This document shows, one piece after another, positions 1-46,334 of a DNA stretch of 64,000 nucleotides. The position numbers and the translations under genes are program-made. Every line of letters starts with the position of its first letter. Within the stretch, counting starts at the first letter, position 1. Origin of the DNA: Coprobacillaceae bacterium UN01-12pH3A (GTDB taxonomy: Bacteria; Bacillota_I; Bacilli_A; Erysipelotrichales; Coprobacillaceae); contig JAQENU010000004.1 in NCBI GenBank assembly GCA_027676805.1, positions 1 through 64,000 of the forward strand, given 5' to 3'. The notes beneath the pieces are model-generated. The model had not been told where the DNA came from, did not search any database, and was given only the letters and a program-made list of their open reading frames with translations.

Positions 1-131
1 CTTTCAATTTCATCTATGTTCTTGCCTACTGTAGACATCCAATTTGTTTCGTAAGCTTCTTTGATATACTCGATTTCTTTTCCGTGCATGGTTGGACTGG
101 ATAGCCAAACCTTTTTTAAAAATTTCTCCAT
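1..131 (-). CDS. DegT/DnrJ/EryC1/StrS family aminotransferase, N-terminal fragment (cut by window edge)
   Basis: Only the first 43 residues are present; the gene runs off the left edge. They read MEKFLKKVWLSSPTMHGKEI and continue through NWMSTVG, the typical opening of PLP-dependent DegT/DnrJ/EryC1/StrS sugar aminotransferases, which aminate nucleotide-linked keto-sugars for surface glycans. The ATG follows a GGGAGG ribosome binding site. It is the first structural gene after the two LoaP-like genes, so a glycan operon probably continues to the left. The family call rests on a short N-terminus. The operon beyond the edge is inference. Confidence 0.7.
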   Translation of the reverse strand, partial: MEKFLKKVWLSSPTMHGKEIEYIKEAYETNWMSTVGKNIDEIE

Positions 132-151
132 TAATTTATCCTCCCTAAAAC

Positions 152-199
152 AAAAAAAGAATACAGTCTCCCCTACCCCAAGTAAGTGATACTATATTC
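152..199 (-). terminator. Leader terminator upstream of the glycan operon, likely antitermination target
   Basis: On the minus strand GAATATAGT (191-199) pairs with ACTGTATTC (159-167), a 9-bp stem with one wobble, followed at once by seven T residues (152-158). The loop is G-rich and about 23 nt. It sits after the antiterminator genes and before the aminotransferase gene, exactly where a LoaP-modified polymerase would need to read through. The stem and T-tract are seen directly. The antitermination role is inference from LoaP biology. Confidence 0.6.
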
Positions 200-207
200 T
201 AATTCTT

Positions 208-235
208 TATATAGGCGGTAAACCGGCTCTATATA
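208..235 (-). promoter_or_regulatory. Leader RNA hairpin next to LoaP-like stop codon, candidate antiterminator recruitment element
   Basis: Minus-strand TATATAG (229-235) pairs with CTATATA (208-214), and an inner CGG/CCG stem closes a TTTA loop. It begins directly after the stop codon of the second LoaP-like gene and just upstream of the leader terminator. LoaP proteins are known to bind a small dual-hairpin RNA near the start of target operons. This hairpin is a positional candidate only, as I cannot match it to a published consensus. Confidence 0.35.
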
Positions 236-733
236 TTAAATTTTGCTTGTAATATTTAAACCGGCTTGGATATGGCGATCCATGAATTTTAGATTTAAAT
301 AAGCCAGTTGGTTGTGTTTATCGATCTTGATAATTTCATTCTCAAAATCTTTTAACGGACCTCTGATAATTTTTGCTTTATGATCTATTAAACAGGCTTG
401 GGACATTTTTAATACACCGGATGAATCTAATAAGCATTCAAACATGCTGATTTCTTCATGACTTAAAGCTGCTGCATCTTTATATTTTAATTGTTTAATA
501 AGTCCGTCTTTATCTTCTTTCATACTTGCCAGTAAAATATCAAACTGAAATTGATTTAATTTTGTTTTTATAAATATATAATTGGGAAATAAGGGTTTCA
601 ATGCATAACCTTTAATATCTCGCCGATAATATTCTATGAGTGGGATAAAGGCGTAAAGTTCCTTTTTATTATTTAATATTTTTAATAGCTTAGGAAGTTT
701 AGTGGATAAAGCAAACAAAATATACCAATTCAT
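236..733 (-). CDS. LoaP/NusG-like transcription antiterminator paralogue (second copy)
   Basis: 165 residues: an N-terminal NGN domain (starts MNWYILFALSTKLPKLLKIL, then LKPLFPNYIFIKT) and a C-terminal KOW segment with RGPLKDFENEIIKIDKHNQ. NusG paralogues of the LoaP class bind paused RNA polymerase and let it read through terminators in long biosynthetic operons. The LoaP signature GPLxGxE...KIDRHKR is eroded here (GPLKDFE, KIDKHNQ), so RNA binding may differ from the upstream copy. Its ATG overlaps the upstream stop by the ATGA arrangement, implying translational coupling. Family call is firm. Whether it activates or modulates is unknown. Confidence 0.75.
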   Translation of the reverse strand: MNWYILFALSTKLPKLLKILNNKKELYAFIPLIEYYRRDIKGYALKPLFPNYIFIKTKLNQFQFDILLASMKEDKDGLIKQLKYKDAAALSHEEISMFECLLDSSGVLKMSQACLIDHKAKIIRGPLKDFENEIIKIDKHNQLAYLNLKFMDRHIQAGLNITSKI

Positions 734-1233
734 GTTTTGCTTATAACTTCTAAAGGAACTTTCATATGTTTGCCTAGCATGCCACAGTCAAGAACTGCAA
801 TTCTTTTATGCCGATCAATCTTTTTTACTTGATATTCCATTCCGACTAACGGACCACTGTCTACTTTTAGAACGGAGTCAGTAATATGGCCAGTGGAATG
901 CTTAATAATATCTTGATTATCAAGTAATTTTTCTAAGAAGTGGGTTTCATTCGGATCTAAAGCGATGACATCTGCATACTCCAATAAAGCGGCAAATCGA
1001 TGGATTGATTTTAACACTTCTGCATACTGATCATTGAATTCCTTTTTAGTCATAGTAGTTTTTAAAAAAATATAATCAGGAAACATACAAGAAATTTGAT
1101 ACTCTCTTAATTTAGAGTTAGAGAACCATTTTTCTATCTTAGGTATAAAGGCATGAATATTATCTTGACGGTTAAAATAATCCACTAGTTCTTGTATTCT
1201 ATCACTTTTAGTATGAATGACGCACCAATACAT
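730..1233 (-). CDS. loaP: LoaP-type transcription antiterminator (NusG paralogue)
   Basis: 167 residues with NGN domain (MYWCVIHTKSDRIQELVDYF, FPDYIFLKT) and a KOW domain containing DSGPLVGMEYQVKKIDRHKR, the hallmark of LoaP. It is expected to travel with RNA polymerase and suppress termination in the downstream glycan operon, as UpxY does in Bacteroides capsule loci. RBS AGAAAGGAG lies at 1239-1247. Only about 25 bp separate the ATG from the recombination site at 1258-1292, leaving no room for a private promoter. Expression must therefore start inside the invertible segment or read through from the recombinase gene. Confidence 0.82.
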   Translation of the reverse strand: MYWCVIHTKSDRIQELVDYFNRQDNIHAFIPKIEKWFSNSKLREYQISCMFPDYIFLKTTMTKKEFNDQYAEVLKSIHRFAALLEYADVIALDPNETHFLEKLLDNQDIIKHSTGHITDSVLKVDSGPLVGMEYQVKKIDRHKRIAVLDCGMLGKHMKVPLEVISKT

Positions 1234-1257
1234 AAGGTCTCCTTTCTGTGAATAATA

Positions 1258-1292
1258 AAAATTTCGTAGAATACACTATTCTACGAAATTTT
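1258..1292. repeat. Left palindromic recombination site of the invertible segment
   Basis: A perfect 16-bp inverted repeat, AAAATTTCGTAGAATA and its complement, flanks the spacer CAC (1274-1276). The inner arm encodes the last codons and TAG stop of the recombinase. A second copy at 2384-2410 has spacer GTG, so the sites are in inverted orientation. Short arms with an asymmetric centre are the architecture expected of tyrosine-recombinase core sites. On the minus strand the hairpin is followed by TTTTTATTATT and may also act as a weak terminator. Confidence 0.82.
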
Positions 1293-2225
1293 AGGCTGCC
1301 TTATTTTATTGATCTGATCCTGCTTAAATTTCAGAGATGAATGCACATAGCGATTTAAAGTAATGGCTATATCAGAATGTCCCAGCATTTCACTTAGTGA
1401 TTTAATCTCTATTCCACTTTCTACACAGTTAGTGGCATAAGTATGTCGGAGTGAATGAAAGTTAATAGAAAATCCATTCTCCATGCAAAGTTTTTTAAAC
1501 CGATACTGAATCGTTCTAGGATCGATAATTCTTTCATTGTTTGAAAGGATATAACCATTTTCATCTTTAGTACCAACAAAACTATAGTACTGATAAATAT
1601 GTCTCAGCATAAAATCCGGCAAGGGGATCTGTCTTTTTGAAGTCTCAGTTTTAGGTTCAAATATCATCAATGACGTTTTAGAGTGAGTTTGATCAGTATT
1701 TTCTAATCTTTGAACCGTTTTTGTGACATTGATAATTCCCTGAGATAAATCAATATCTTTCCATTGCAGTGCACAAATTTCACCAATCCGCAGACCGGCA
1801 TATAGACCTAAAGTAATCGCAATCGATGTCGAGTCGACATGATGAAAACAATAATTATCTAAACATTGAATTTGAAAAGAAGTCAATACTTTGGTTTCTT
1901 CCTTCTTATTAGTCAATTTAATAAACTGAAAATCAATATGGGGAATGCCATATTTATATTCTCCATAGTTTAAGATTGATTTTAAGGTGAATCGTATTGA
2001 AGCCATCATACTAAATGAATAGTGACCTTCCATTTTCTTCTTTAAAAATTGAACAATAGTTTGTTCGTTGAGGTCCTGCGTATGACATTCCTGAAAAAAT
2101 GGATTGAGCTGTAATTCAATTAATCGCTTATATTTGATATAAGTAGAGTATTTGATGTAGACTCGCTTTAATTCGAGCCATTCTTTAGAAATTGTTAGCA
2201 TATCTTTATTGATGTTCACTTGCAT
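1281..2225 (-). CDS. Tyrosine recombinase (phage integrase family), likely invertase of the surrounding segment
   Basis: 314 residues. An N-terminal SAM-like core-binding domain (about 10-105) precedes a catalytic domain (about 112-300). The full catalytic set is visible: R146 in AGLRIGEICAL, K192 in PKTETSKRQ, H257 and R260 in HSLRHTYAT, H283 in LGHSDIAITL and nucleophile Y293. It should cleave and rejoin DNA by a 3'-phosphotyrosine intermediate. Start supported by AAGGAGG at 2235-2241. No excisionase, attachment-site cargo or phage genes are nearby. The gene sits between two inverted palindromes, arguing for a resident DNA invertase. Its own promoter is not clear-cut. Confidence 0.88.
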   Translation of the reverse strand: MQVNINKDMLTISKEWLELKRVYIKYSTYIKYKRLIELQLNPFFQECHTQDLNEQTIVQFLKKKMEGHYSFSMMASIRFTLKSILNYGEYKYGIPHIDFQFIKLTNKKEETKVLTSFQIQCLDNYCFHHVDSTSIAITLGLYAGLRIGEICALQWKDIDLSQGIINVTKTVQRLENTDQTHSKTSLMIFEPKTETSKRQIPLPDFMLRHIYQYYSFVGTKDENGYILSNNERIIDPRTIQYRFKKLCMENGFSINFHSLRHTYATNCVESGIEIKSLSEMLGHSDIAITLNRYVHSSLKFKQDQINKIRQPKIS

Positions 2226-2351
2226 CTTGTTATTCCTCCTTATAAAATACCATTGTCAATCTATCATTTTTTAATGGAGAAACACCAGTTAGACTAAAAA
2301 TAAGAAAATACGATCAATTTCCGCAAAATCTTTCTAAATACGTATTTTATA

Positions 2352-2380
2352 TTTTATTTTAAGTCGCTTTATGCTATAAT
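2352..2380 (+). promoter_or_regulatory. Outward-facing extended -10 promoter inside the invertible segment
   Basis: TATAAT at 2375-2380 is preceded by TG one base upstream, making TGnTATAAT. The -35 region (TTTTAT at 2352) is weak. Transcription would start near 2387, inside the right recombination site, and run rightwards. In the present orientation it meets only the terminator at 2434-2460. The same extended -10 form occurs at several other promoters in this window, supporting it as a real element. Confidence 0.65.
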
Positions 2381-2383
2381 TCG

Positions 2384-2411
2384 TTTCGTAGAATAGTGTA
2401 TTCTATGTAAA
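2384..2411. repeat. Right palindromic recombination site of the invertible segment
   Basis: TTTCGTAGAATA, spacer GTG (2396-2398), then TATTCTATGTAAA. It matches the reverse complement of the left site over 22 consecutive bases and diverges only in its outer arm. The inner arms of the two sites are identical. Together with the spacer orientation, this places the two sites as inverted repeats about 1.1 kb apart. Confidence 0.82.
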
Positions 2412-2433
2412 AATATAAATTTAAAGACCTATG

Positions 2434-2460
2434 ACCTGCAGAACAGCCTGTAGGTTTTTT
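2434..2460 (+). terminator. Terminator facing the invertible promoter
   Basis: ACCTGCAG (2434-2441) pairs with CTGTAGGT (2448-2455), one G-U pair, followed by six T residues. There is no plus-strand gene between the invertible promoter and this hairpin. Its apparent job is to absorb transcription in the OFF orientation. Confidence 0.75.
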
Positions 2461-2465
2461 AATAC

Positions 2466-2487
2466 AAAAAAAGAGACCGTAGTCTCT
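2466..2487 (-). terminator. Terminator of the minus-strand 2.5-4.7 kb operon
   Basis: On the minus strand AGAGAC, a CGTA-derived tetraloop and GTCTCT precede a run of T residues (A-run 2466-2472 on the plus strand). It begins immediately after the stop codon of the small gene at 2488. Confidence 0.75.
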
Positions 2488-2724
2488 CTAACAATAAGCA
2501 GGCAAATACATCTGCGGATTGTCTTTATACTTTTTAGCTTCTTCCTGAGATAAGAAGACCGTTAAATGAAGCTGTTTTGAAGAAATAACATGAGGTCCCG
2601 CACATCCGGCATAGCCTTCGATACTAAAATTATATTCTTCCGCATTACCTTCTATATCCATAATTTTTCCACTCATGACATAACCATTCATTAAGTAATA
2701 AACAAGAGTGCCTTCTTTAAGCAT
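2488..2724 (-). CDS. Small conserved-looking protein of unknown function
   Basis: 78 residues starting MLKEGTLVYYLMNGYVMSGK. An upstream in-frame ATG at 2760 is less likely because it overlaps the preceding gene, whereas the ATG at 2722-2724 has AGAAGG a suitable distance upstream. The protein is mixed beta-rich, with a CAGPH segment in the middle and PAYC at the C-terminus. There is no signal peptide or membrane segment. It closes an operon with the serine-hydrolase-like/DUF302 protein and Rrf2 regulator, four bases downstream of the former. I do not recognise a family. Confidence 0.6.
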   Translation of the reverse strand: MLKEGTLVYYLMNGYVMSGKIMDIEGNAEEYNFSIEGYAGCAGPHVISSKQLHLTVFLSQEEAKKYKDNPQMYLPAYC

Positions 2725-2728
2725 AGTA

Positions 2729-4234
2729 TTACCTTCTTTCATAAACACTGGCACCAACATGGGCGATTTCTTCTAATAGCTTTTGCATTTTTATAATAAT
2801 AGGATGAACAGATAAACCATAATGATCCGCCATCTTGCTTGTTTTTTCAAAAGCGATCCAAGTGCTTCCGGATTCATCTTCCCATACGGCAATTTTTAAT
2901 GGCAGCTGTAAGGCAATGCTTTGATCTTCCAGCATTAAATTAGTGCCAACCTTTGGTGCACCAAAGACTAAGACAGTAGTTTCTCTTAACTCCATGCCAA
3001 CCTCTTTTGCATTTTTAGCGTGATCAAATTTTGCGAAGAGAGGAATTTCTCTTCTTTTCAATTCATTTTCTAATTTTGTAATGGTTTCTTGTACGGGTAA
3101 TTGTCCCTCAAGCAGATACAACTGATTATCATCATATTGAGTAGATAATAAATCACCAAATGCACCGGCAATCTTTCTGCCTAAGTTCGTAAAATCAACA
3201 TTTTCTTTATTTGCTAATAGGGTGACACATACCAGTTCATCAGGATCTGTAAAACGACTTAAAAATGAGGAATAACCGGGGATTGTCCCTTTAATATCCA
3301 TTAATCCACGATGCTTGTAGAATTGCCATCCGGCTGACGCAGGTATTTCAAGTCCGTCAGGTAAGTTCCAGGGTTGATAAAGTTTGTTTCGATTTTCTAA
3401 ACCATGAATCAATACGCCACCGGCTAACCCAATATCCCAGTATGAAATATCCTGAGCACTGGCCCATATATCATTATATCCTCGCATAGCGGTGCTTTTT
3501 TGTGGATCAATCTCTGCGCCTTCATCATTATAGCTTCGTGAAAACTCGGTTGGATCGATATATTCACCATTGGTTTTAAACAGCTGATGAATATAGTCAC
3601 TTGCAGATAAATCTTCATGTTTAAATTTATCGAGATCTTCATAAAAACCGGTATGTTTAAGATTCAGAAAACGAATTTGCCTTTCAGCAATGAAATCATG
3701 ATAGCTTTGCTGACTGATTCTTTCTACGATCTCACTCAATAACAGGAAGTTAATCGCATTTTTTTCGATGTCATGTCCGGGTTCAAAGTGAAGTGGGCTG
3801 TCTTTTAAAGCATTTAAGACATCTTTTAGCTGTGTTTCCTGAGTTTTTGGCAGTCCGCTTGCATGATGCAGGAGATCAATCACTTTAATTGAATGCCAAG
3901 TCTTAGGCACTTCCGGTAGATAGTGATCAATCGTGCTTTCTAACTCCAGCTTTCCATCCTCGTATAACTGCATAATAGCGACAGCACAGAAAGCCTGAGA
4001 AATTGCCCCGACAGGCCACATGGTATTAACACTGGCAAGTCTTTTTTCTTTGACATCAGAATAGCCATAACCGACTACTCTGGGGATGTAGGGTGCTTGA
4101 ACGATCGCTAAAGTTAAACCGGGAATGTTTTCTTCTTTCATGAAATCAATAATCATTTGATCGATACTATGATCTAAATAACTGACATTATAATCTCCAC
4201 GTACTTTCATTTCTTTATGCTCTTTTGTATTCAT
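2729..4234 (-). CDS. Beta-lactamase-fold (class C/EstB-like) protein fused to DUF302, catalytic residues missing
   Basis: 501 residues. Residues about 20-355 follow the class C beta-lactamase/serine hydrolase pattern (IPGLTLAIV, MQLYEDGKLEL, LLHHASGLP). Residues about 370-495 match DUF302 (FAKFDHAKNAKEVGMEL, TTVLVFGAPKVGT, LPLKIAVWED). The SxxK nucleophile motif is replaced by AISQ at 77-80, and the YxN position by KNA at 158-160. Hydrolysis is therefore doubtful, and a binding or sensory role is more likely. No signal peptide, so cytoplasmic. Its ATG lies two bases after the Rrf2 stop. The fold assignment is firm. The loss of activity is inferred from the alignment in my head. Confidence 0.75.
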   Translation of the reverse strand: MNTKEHKEMKVRGDYNVSYLDHSIDQMIIDFMKEENIPGLTLAIVQAPYIPRVVGYGYSDVKEKRLASVNTMWPVGAISQAFCAVAIMQLYEDGKLELESTIDHYLPEVPKTWHSIKVIDLLHHASGLPKTQETQLKDVLNALKDSPLHFEPGHDIEKNAINFLLLSEIVERISQQSYHDFIAERQIRFLNLKHTGFYEDLDKFKHEDLSASDYIHQLFKTNGEYIDPTEFSRSYNDEGAEIDPQKSTAMRGYNDIWASAQDISYWDIGLAGGVLIHGLENRNKLYQPWNLPDGLEIPASAGWQFYKHRGLMDIKGTIPGYSSFLSRFTDPDELVCVTLLANKENVDFTNLGRKIAGAFGDLLSTQYDDNQLYLLEGQLPVQETITKLENELKRREIPLFAKFDHAKNAKEVGMELRETTVLVFGAPKVGTNLMLEDQSIALQLPLKIAVWEDESGSTWIAFEKTSKMADHYGLSVHPIIIKMQKLLEEIAHVGASVYERR

Positions 4235-4235
4235 C

Positions 4236-4661
4236 TTATTTTCCTCTTTTCTTGTTTTCCAGCTTTAATAAAACATCGCAAATCGTTATCGTTGAAAGAT
4301 AGTCCTGACAGACACTTTCTAAATCATTGCATAACTCATCGATGACATAGGGCATTCCACTGCTGACTAAACAATCGTTGTGAATATCACCGCTTCGCCA
4401 GGAAGTATGACAGATTGTCACAGTTAAAGCATCATAAACCTGTTTCAAAGTCACTTTTTCACTGCCAATCTTAAAACAGTAACCGCCGTTGATGCCTTCC
4501 TTGGTTTCTACGATTCCGGCTTTTTTTAATTTCCCCAGTACTTTTCTTATTCGTACCGGATTCACACATACATTTTTAGCGAGTTCTTCACTAGAGAGCT
4601 GCTGATCCATCTTTCTTAAATAAACTAAGACATGGATCGCTATTATAAATTCGCTTGGCAT
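4236..4661 (-). CDS. Rrf2 family transcriptional regulator
   Basis: 141 residues with an N-terminal winged helix (FIIAIHVLVYLRKM, SSEELAKNVCVNPVRIRKVLGKLKKAGIVETKEG, then NGGYCF), the classic Rrf2 layout. Cysteines in the middle (TICHTSW and HNDCLV) could be redox or Fe-S ligands, as in IscR and NsrR, but the canonical three-Cys spacing is not evident. RBS AGAAAGGAG precedes the ATG. It heads the operon with the hydrolase-like/DUF302 gene, and an inverted repeat lies just upstream, suggesting autoregulation. Confidence 0.88.
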   Translation of the reverse strand: MPSEFIIAIHVLVYLRKMDQQLSSEELAKNVCVNPVRIRKVLGKLKKAGIVETKEGINGGYCFKIGSEKVTLKQVYDALTVTICHTSWRSGDIHNDCLVSSGMPYVIDELCNDLESVCQDYLSTITICDVLLKLENKKRGK

Positions 4662-4674
4662 AACTTCTCCTTTC

Positions 4675-4693
4675 TGTAACTTTTTTTATTACA
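4675..4693. promoter_or_regulatory. Inverted repeat upstream of the Rrf2 gene, candidate operator
   Basis: TGTAA and TTACA arms are separated by nine bases and lie 14-32 bp upstream of the Rrf2 start codon. Symmetric A+T-rich sites of this size are normal for Rrf2 family operators. A promoter-like AATATAAAT lies beside it. Assignment is positional. Confidence 0.4.
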
Positions 4694-4742
4694 TTTATAT
4701 TATTGACCTTTAACAAAAGAAAAACAAGGAATATGCTTGAAT

Positions 4743-4770
4743 AAAAAAAAGCACACTTTATTAAAAGTGC
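4743..4770 (-). terminator. Terminator of the GH1 gene
   Basis: On the minus strand GCACTTT, a short loop and AAAGTGTGC precede eight T residues (plus-strand A-run 4743-4750). It lies about 15 bp beyond the GH1 stop codon. Confidence 0.8.
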
Positions 4771-4782
4771 ACTCTCTTATTA

Positions 4783-6308
<1,526 letters not shown>

Positions 6309-45566: not shown

Positions 45567-46334
45567 TTATTTATAAAGTTCTCTAACGCCATCCATATCT
45601 GTAGCAGTCATGGCATTTCTTTGCCCCATATTTGGCTGTGGATCATATTTAGGCAGGGGTTCAATCGTTTTTGTACCTGTTTTTGCAAAAGAAGTTGCAC
45701 GGTAGTGCATGATAGATTCAAAATCGTATTTTCCGTAAGTCTCACCACTGGATATCTTAAAATTATGCTCATAACCGGGTTTGATATTATCCGAATTAAT
45801 TTTAATATATGCGTCTCTGTCACTGCGACAATGTTCATGTTCGATACTACATGTATGCAGCATTTCGTGCAGAATGTTTCCAACTTTGGCTTTATCTGAC
45901 AGAGTAATCTCTTGTTTACCGCCAACCTTACCAATATAAGAAGAACATCCATCCCCCTTTACGAACTCAACATAATCTTTATCTTCACTTTTCTTCTCTC
46001 TAAAGCTGACATTTAACTTTGCTGAATTAAATGTCGTGATTGCAGTATTAATCTCCGCTGTTTTTTTGTGCCCAGCTGCAATACAGTAGGGAATTTCTTT
46101 GGTATCCCATAGATTTTTTTTAATTAGACAGGCATTTTTCTGCTGTGATCCTAATTCCTCGTAGGCTGTCAAAAACTCTGAGAATTGCAGAACATCTTTT
46201 GTCTTTCCTAACTTAATATCTCCTTGTACAATGGCAATGCCATCGTGATCAATAAAGCTTCCTTCGTAAATTTCTCCATTTAAAACATATTTTTTGTTTT
46301 CAATTAATTTTCCTTCACAAATTTCCTGATTCAT
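45567..46334 (-). CDS. Astacin-like (M12A) zinc metalloprotease without signal peptide
   Basis: 255 residues. Residues 80-255 match the astacin domain: IPYCI, YVEFVKGDGCSSYIGKVGGK, zinc motif H156-E157-x2-H160 and H166 (HEMLHTCSIEHEHCRSDRD), and Met-turn SIMHYR (M209, Y211). The usual Gly of HExxHxxG is Ser163. Residues 1-75 are a non-catalytic N-terminal domain that may act as prodomain. No signal peptide, unusual for astacins, so either cytoplasmic or exported another way. Stands back to back with the LytTR/DUF2589 cluster. Confidence 0.85.
   Translation of the reverse strand: MNQEICEGKLIENKKYVLNGEIYEGSFIDHDGIAIVQGDIKLGKTKDVLQFSEFLTAYEELGSQQKNACLIKKNLWDTKEIPYCIAAGHKKTAEINTAITTFNSAKLNVSFREKKSEDKDYVEFVKGDGCSSYIGKVGGKQEITLSDKAKVGNILHEMLHTCSIEHEHCRSDRDAYIKINSDNIKPGYEHNFKISSGETYGKYDFESIMHYRATSFAKTGTKTIEPLPKYDPQPNMGQRNAMTATDMDGVRELYK

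Follow-up and report, generated by a model that had tools for sequence, protein, structure and literature searches.

We consider it probable that a 1.1-kb segment at positions 1262-2410 of the window, the whole 64,000-nucleotide stretch of DNA that was analysed, is an invertible switch for a pair of loaP genes and for the capsule-type genes that follow them. Enclosed by two near-palindromic sites in inverted orientation, the segment holds a predicted promoter together with a tyrosine recombinase gene, which probably encodes its own flipping enzyme (Table 1). A first-pass annotation had proposed a self-contained inversion switch placed before antiterminator genes. This proposal is supported by the same locus of Beduini massiliensis GM1 (L001), where the segment is inverted, and the promoter faces the LoaP genes only in that inverted state. 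If the proposal is true, a group of Gram-positive gut commensals phase-vary their capsule with parts unlike those of Bacteroides, and an RNA element not described before links DNA inversion to the processive antitermination exerted by LoaP, with the consequence that LoaP targets become searchable. Long reads or metagenomes show the orientation of the segment directly, which makes the idea open to immediate testing.

Table 1. Features of the proposed switch and its surroundings, in window coordinates
Feature	Position	Strand	Basis
DegT-type aminotransferase gene start; opens the polysaccharide cluster and is truncated at the window edge	3..131	-	likeness to L212
RNA leader element, model R1 (hairpin ~208-235, terminator stem ~158-200 with U-tract)	148..234	-	folding, covariance model
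loaP2, LoaP-type NusG paralogue	236..733	-	NCBIfam: LoaP 90.9 bits, UpxY 44.8, NusG 21.1
loaP1, LoaP-type NusG paralogue	730..1233	-	NCBIfam: LoaP 112.3 bits, UpxY 36.8, NusG 24.3
Putative left inversion site, near-palindrome, centre CAC	1262..1288	+	repeat search and alignment
Tyrosine recombinase gene inside the segment, 314 aa	1281..2225	-	Pfam PF00589; conserved active-site residues
Outward extended -10 promoter motif TATGCTATAAT	2370..2380	+	motif; 16/16 LoaP-linked self-contained loci
Putative right inversion site, repeats the left one in inverted orientation around a GTG centre	2384..2410	-	repeat search and alignment
Intrinsic terminator just outside the right site	2433..2456	+	terminator scan, folding

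Inverted sites flank an intact tyrosine recombinase gene

The two arms of the inverted repeat are 27 nt each and 93% complementary. Twenty-two bases are identical between them (1267-1288 versus 2384-2405), and two mismatches fall in the outer part of the right site. Each arm is itself nearly palindromic around an asymmetric centre, CAC in one and GTG in the other, and because these centres differ between otherwise near-palindromic sites, it is the centre that sets the orientation. Repeat search and alignment thus bore out the earlier description of two palindromic sites that share 22 bases in inverted orientation and are told apart by a CAC/GTG centre. The full hairpin of the left site extends over 1258-1292 and also resembles an intrinsic terminator for minus-strand transcription. 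A search of the window with the site pattern CGTAGAATANNNTATTCTA (19 positions, 16 of them fixed, at most 3 mismatches allowed) returned four matches, namely the two sites on both strands, and nothing elsewhere. Shuffled windows gave a mean of 1.17 matches and reached four in 6 of 100 cases; the exact agreement from arm to arm is a far stricter criterion than this pattern.

We compared the sites of related loci in 88 rows, in which some loci are present twice (L161-L195 overlap L001-L006 and L196 onward). Half-sites are common to different loci, and the two arms of one locus differ in 7-17 rows at most of the half-site positions (6-12 from the centre) and in 37 rows at the outermost one. The central bases vary most between loci (up to 1.96 bits), and at positions -3 to +5 the arms of one locus differ in merely 0-6 of the 88 rows. 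The sites in this respect resemble strand-exchange sites, as the pattern is the one expected from homology-dependent strand exchange; we regard this as support and not as proof, because the arms were picked for likeness, a choice that favours matching centres in the comparison. The exact 22-base site has no match in the viral contigs.

The gene between the sites encodes a protein that matches the Pfam Phage_integrase family at E 8.3e-28, with 97.7 bits against a cut-off of 27.1. An alignment of 37 sequences, with that of the window among them, shows no variation at five residues that we take to be the catalytic R..H-x-x-R..H..Y set (R146, H257, R260, H283 and Y293). Together with the undamaged reading frame, the Pfam match and the invariant residues agree with the first-pass view of a catalytically intact tyrosine recombinase lying between the sites. 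An identity as XerC, XerD or XerA was rejected, the best NCBIfam equivalog score being 99.7 bits against 220 and that for XerC 73.6 against 335.

Relatives of this recombinase are numerous. When genome contigs were scanned with the alignment of recombinases, at least 582 stretches proved to encode a relative; the best 80 were kept, 73 of them with enough flank for a repeat test. Among these best-scoring loci, an inverted repeat (score of at least 16) surrounds the recombinase gene in 55 of 73, and the corresponding figures are 6 of 365 for mismatched flank pairs and 5 of 73 for a direct-repeat control. The closest among the matches listed is the recombinase of Beduini massiliensis GM1, a member of the Erysipelotrichia, at 85% protein identity, and 21 of the 43 genomes of the B. 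massiliensis family contain a relative at E 1e-50 or better. Some relatives sit in viral contigs, where 7 of 46 related recombinase genes with enough flank (6 loci) reach a repeat score of at least 16. Recombinases with flanking inverted repeats were seen at L083, L084, L086, L093, L099 and L121, all of them loci in viral-collection contigs.

The segment is inverted in Beduini massiliensis

Alignment of the window with L001 gives three blocks of 80-91% DNA identity: window 140-1288 pairs with L001 6692-7841 on the plus strand, window 1265-2405 with L001 8961-7820 on the minus strand, and window 2384-2745 with L001 8938-9301 on the plus strand. The flanks are collinear, the segment is inverted, and both breakpoints lie inside the sites, which are exactly where the blocks overlap. 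The level of identity makes it probable that the window and L001 belong to separate species, so that what is seen is an inversion between relatives and not within one clone. As in an inverton, two inverted sites flank a promoter, here a motif, and both orientations occur at the same locus, between species. In L001 the promoter faces loaP1 and loaP2 and then sugar-transferase and glycosyltransferase genes, with epimerase- and flippase-like genes, recognized by eye only, further behind. In the window it faces an intrinsic terminator, and we infer that the window is in the OFF orientation and L001 in the ON orientation.

The inverted locus bears on two other readings of the segment. It is extremely improbable that the palindromes are merely terminators, alike by coincidence or homogenisation: the left site does score as an intrinsic terminator on the minus strand, but an inverted locus with its breakpoints in the sites, and the recurrence of inverted repeats at 55 of 73 loci versus 6 of 365 controls, are not what this reading predicts. 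On the same two grounds, we discarded chance palindromes and plain terminators as candidates. A minimal integrative element, inserted in opposite directions in the window and in B. massiliensis with no flipping in place, is very unlikely. Such an element would suit a recombinase of the phage integrase family with some relatives in viral contigs, and near-palindromic sites could take either orientation. Integration leaves direct repeats, whereas the two sites are inverted as judged by their centres, and the promoter motif and the outer terminator are kept in all 16 of the LoaP-linked loci described below, which also argues against integration and for an inversion switch. No empty site was noticed in the course of these comparisons.

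Likeness between the window and L001 ends right after the leader terminator (window 1-140; L001 below 6692). The first sugar gene differs, being of DegT type in the window and a sugar transferase in L001, and it looks as if capsule clusters had been swapped behind a constant switch. Beside the switch, window 2745-4768 holds a beta-lactamase-fold/DUF302 fusion gene and an Rrf2 regulator gene, with no counterpart there in B. massiliensis.

Promoter motif, outer terminator and orientation across LoaP-linked loci

LoaP-linked self-contained invertons occur at least once in 11 of the 43 family genomes (15 loci), giving 16 loci with the window. A locus was placed in this set, for which larger stretches were fetched, if inverted sites enclose a small recombinase and a tandem LoaP pair adjoins them. 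Excluded before orientations were counted were L215, which has one site; L308 and L291, whose contigs begin within the locus; L295 and L003, where a single site was seen; and L205, with a weak single LoaP match and a short repeat. Orientation is as in the window, with the recombinase pointing at loaP1 and the switch presumably OFF, in 14 of the 16, a count that takes in close species (L002, L210, L212); L001 and L223 are reversed and presumably ON.

The promoter motif TATGCTATAAT ends 3 bp short of the right site and points out of the segment, in the window away from the LoaP genes. A generic -35/-10 scan did not list it. An outward extended -10 at the inner edge of the far site is present in 16 of 16 loci, where shuffles had a mean of 0.73 and a maximum of 4; the pattern was drawn up after inspection of the sequences, and the shuffles keep base composition only. 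The outward promoter between the sites that the annotation had reported is thereby retained as a motif, here and throughout the LoaP-linked set. Beyond the site away from LoaP, a terminator-like hairpin is likewise found in 16 of 16 loci against 1.6 expected (20 shuffles per locus with base composition kept, at a self-chosen threshold of -7 kcal/mol), the best hairpin lying at least 70 nt from the site in L198, L223 and L228. At L002, L209 and L213, among others, a U-tract is missing from the LoaP-proximal site. Transcription of the recombinase gene might there run on into loaP even when the switch is OFF, a point that we count against the switch.

Sixteen of the 17 loci with a small LoaP-linked recombinase (the window, L001, L002, L004, L005, L198, L209-L213, L215, L221, L222, L223, L226 and L228) retain both sites, although L228 does so weakly (score 13). 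At L215, which is LoaP-linked and lies outside the 16-locus set, no far site was found. A quick tree was built from 110 recombinases. In it, 16 small LoaP-linked ones (L215 counted in, the interrupted L223 left out) share a supported clade of 28 rows with 12 that have no LoaP gene beside them, and 9 of these 12 have no called repeat, which counts against the switch reading. Loss of the sites where the recombinase is kept had been named in the annotation as evidence that would speak against a switch; on this point the LoaP-linked loci are favourable to it and the clade relatives outside LoaP loci are not. Among the non-LoaP relatives, L003 keeps one site beside an assembly gap, and L218 has diverged sites, recognized by eye.

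The same loci allow us to weigh whether the switch inverted in the past and is now locked, or nearly so, in the window's strain, which we think unlikely. The two mismatches in the outer part of the right site, the 14 of 16 loci in one orientation, the loss of one site at L215 and an interrupted recombinase at L223 are all compatible with locking; the window's recombinase is intact, however, and the 22 central bases of its sites are identical. L223 itself (G037:C13) has a stop codon in the recombinase frame and its segment in the presumed ON orientation; it may be locked ON, or the sequence may contain an assembly error.

A covarying RNA leader follows the LoaP-type genes

The two LoaP-type genes overlap, and LoaP is by far the best family for both. 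Both stay under the curated LoaP cut-off of 125 bits (NF033641) and are hence labelled LoaP-type. UpxY was rejected as an identity, at 36.8 and 44.8 bits against the NCBIfam NF033644 cut-off of 100. At the window edge, the product of the truncated first gene of the cluster is too short for a Pfam match and has 46% identity over 41 residues to the DegT protein of L212. Polysaccharide-type genes (sugar transferase, glycosyltransferase, DegT or hexapeptide) lie behind LoaP in 7 of 8 loci tested, the exception being L209, where the tested downstream gene encodes an acetyltransferase, and in 3 of 3 recombinase-less LoaP loci tested. Several genomes carry many LoaP-type genes.

Directly 3' of the loaP2 stop codon, the RNA forms a 28-nt hairpin and then a second hairpin with a U-tract. 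This leader would be a second control layer, one that the first-pass annotation did not include. As an unfitted check, 14 loci were aligned without structure and folded by RNAalifold, which recovered the first hairpin, with both partners changed in 5 pairs, but not the terminator stem from this joint alignment. In a test that specified both helices, none of 500 shuffles came up to the values for standard pairing, for cells in which both sides had changed and for covariation. For both helices together, the value for pairs changed on both sides was reached by 21 of 500 shuffles and that for further pair types by 444 of 500, and neither is remarkable.

A covariance model of the leader, R1, matched 19 of the 43 family genomes. 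It gave 34 strong matches (E below 1e-5), and 31 of these were analysed further together with the window. Across the resulting 32 distinct rows, in an alignment that was fitted to the structure and holds 13 rows from the training set of R1, both partners have changed in 8 of 10 pairs. All but one of the 32 elements (31/32) begin within 15 nt of a LoaP stop codon. The covarying hairpin often has an intrinsic terminator behind it. The leader terminator has another layout in L004, L209, L215 and L226, and the leader is more diverged in L198, L222 and L228. The element without an adjoining LoaP gene lies at 8851-8934 of L302, and it might be served in trans by a LoaP gene elsewhere on the same contig.

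Rfam 15 gave no match over the leader within window 1-5000, up to E 1, and the leaders of six related loci had none at gathering score. A known Rfam leader was accordingly set aside; the four weak matches in the window (E 0.18-0.54), which cover the left palindrome, 1257-1333 and 2460-2607, were taken as chance.

An RNA hairpin and a terminator before the target operon, the arrangement that marks LoaP targets, are found here, and by analogy LoaP probably binds the leader hairpin and antiterminates into the sugar genes. It is distinctly unlikely that the segment flips and LoaP nonetheless acts elsewhere in the genome, or that the leader is not its target. The solitary element of L302 and the abundance of LoaP-type genes in several genomes would accord with action elsewhere, whereas the abutment of 31 of 32 R1 elements on a LoaP stop codon, and the single R1 match of B. 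massiliensis at E 0.01 or better, favour the adjoining leader as the target.

A proposed switch with two locks

We propose that the recombinase exchanges the two sites and that the segment flips as a result. In the window's orientation, transcription from the predicted promoter would end at the terminator outside the right site (OFF), and transcripts of the recombinase gene would be stopped by the left site. After a flip, the start of transcription would fall roughly at the site's edge, with just a short hairpin able to form and the site terminator disarmed. The loaP1-loaP2 pair would then be transcribed, and polymerase would reach the hairpin and terminator behind loaP2, where LoaP would bind the hairpin and RNA polymerase would pass into the sugar genes. 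The switch would in this way have two locks, the first being orientation and the second antitermination.

A broader reading is that this is a two-lock capsule switch of the Erysipelotrichia, independent of the Bacteroides Mpi/UpxY system, in which LoaP opens an RNA attenuator of a new class that is joined to the loaP2 stop codon. Under this reading, where a genome has several capsule loci, the recombinase would also flip recombinase-less cassettes in trans, the locus-specific site centres isolating the loci from one another. We hold the chances of this broader reading to be evenly balanced, having lowered them because 9 of the 12 clade-mates outside LoaP loci have no called repeat.

Comparison with known switches and antiterminators

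Several known systems share parts with the proposed switch. Switches of the RecV and fim types differ from it in having the recombinase gene beside the switch or elsewhere; in the fim type, as is proposed here, a tyrosine recombinase inverts a promoter segment. The RecV type is likewise similar in that a tyrosine recombinase inverts a promoter or control segment, according to excerpts of PMC5903667, which also note that recombinases occasionally lie within their own segment and name Hin. Serine invertases of the Hin/Gin type resemble the present switch in placing the recombinase gene within the inverted segment but belong to another recombinase family with another mechanism and have no antiterminator. 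PsrA of the pneumococcal cod/hsdS locus is a tyrosine recombinase whose gene lies within the locus that is rearranged, but it shuffles the coding sequence of specificity subunits and not a promoter (PMC7096588, excerpts). The invertible capsule promoters of Bacteroides precede a NusG-paralogue antiterminator, UpxY, and a capsule locus (PMC11892184, excerpts), and Mpi, one of the invertases responsible, is a serine recombinase that acts on at least 13 regions (PMC5903667, excerpts). The present segment differs from the Mpi/UpxY system in that it encloses the gene of a tyrosine recombinase and is accompanied by a LoaP-type pair and an RNA leader.

Among Clostridia, the short invertons of group 139 have been linked to tyrosine recombinase group 35 (PMC11892184, excerpts). 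The comparison is by description only, as recombinases were counted there if they intersected an inverton or lay within 5 kb of it and are not stated in the excerpts to lie inside; the excerpts make no mention of LoaP alongside group 139. In Eggerthella lenta, DNA inversion alters capsule expression relative to a LoaP gene, but mostly through megabase inversions at a 16-bp repeat with no adjoining recombinase gene (PMC13174815, excerpts of a preprint). The LoaP of Bacillus velezensis needs an RNA hairpin and counteracts a NusA-stimulated terminator, and its dfn leader resembles ours in combining LoaP, an RNA hairpin and an intrinsic terminator before a long operon; the operons are antibiotic operons, the hairpin has a UNCG loop, and no inversion is described in the excerpts (PMC12691694). 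Here, unlike in B. velezensis, there is a LoaP pair, the loop is not UNCG, and the hairpin abuts the loaP2 stop codon.

An invertible promoter is thus already known. What is new, as far as our literature searches show, is a tyrosine recombinase in its own inverton together with a LoaP-type pair and a covarying leader. The annotation had called a tyrosine recombinase inside its own inverton that feeds LoaP-type antiterminators an arrangement not known to be described. A recombinase inside its inverton is, however, a layout widespread in Clostridia, and the LoaP-plus-leader combination is therefore the more distinctive part. Within the literature on LoaP and inversion, only PMC13174815 concerns this protein, by its title, in a search that left most subscription papers and all bioRxiv preprints uncovered.

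Recombinase-less cassettes and other cargo

At six LoaP loci, a short cassette of ~180-380 bp shows the matching sites and the promoter motif but contains no recombinase. Their orientation was read from sequence: L289, L293, L297 and L304, all of genome G035, and L306 face away from LoaP, and L307 faces it. Since at E 1e-50 the recombinases of this family in G035 number two, a small one (L215) and a larger one, the small recombinase may act in trans on the recombinase-less cassettes. The centres of the four G035 cassettes differ from one another, and such differences should hinder exchange between the loci. Five larger LoaP-linked recombinases (L204, L205, L292, L296 and L298; 374-379 aa) form a separate clade and probably represent a second, independent recruitment; a clean repeat containing the recombinase is found in L296 only.

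Outside the LoaP set, recombinases inside their own inverton are common, with other cargo, and are widespread in Clostridia. The first gene faces the segment in 52 of 64 repeat-flanked loci. From 67 facing genes, 25 were scanned; they encode pilin-like, LPXTG-anchored, leucine-rich, MucBP, Wzz, CpsB/CapC and sugar-transferase proteins. Others encode helicases, a TetR regulator, a kinase and a protein with a condensation domain, and for three products there is no Pfam match. Recombinase, promoter and two sites would thus make up a portable module, which relatives appear to place before pilin-like, adhesin-like, polysaccharide and other genes. In L006 and L197, self-contained invertons precede very large surface-type genes; the large gene of L006 has 13 FctA-type pilin repeats, and the segment there has a facing gene on both sides. 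Elsewhere in the window, a predicted protein encoded at 45567-46334 contains a stretch resembling a metallopeptidase motif, presumably of the astacin type.
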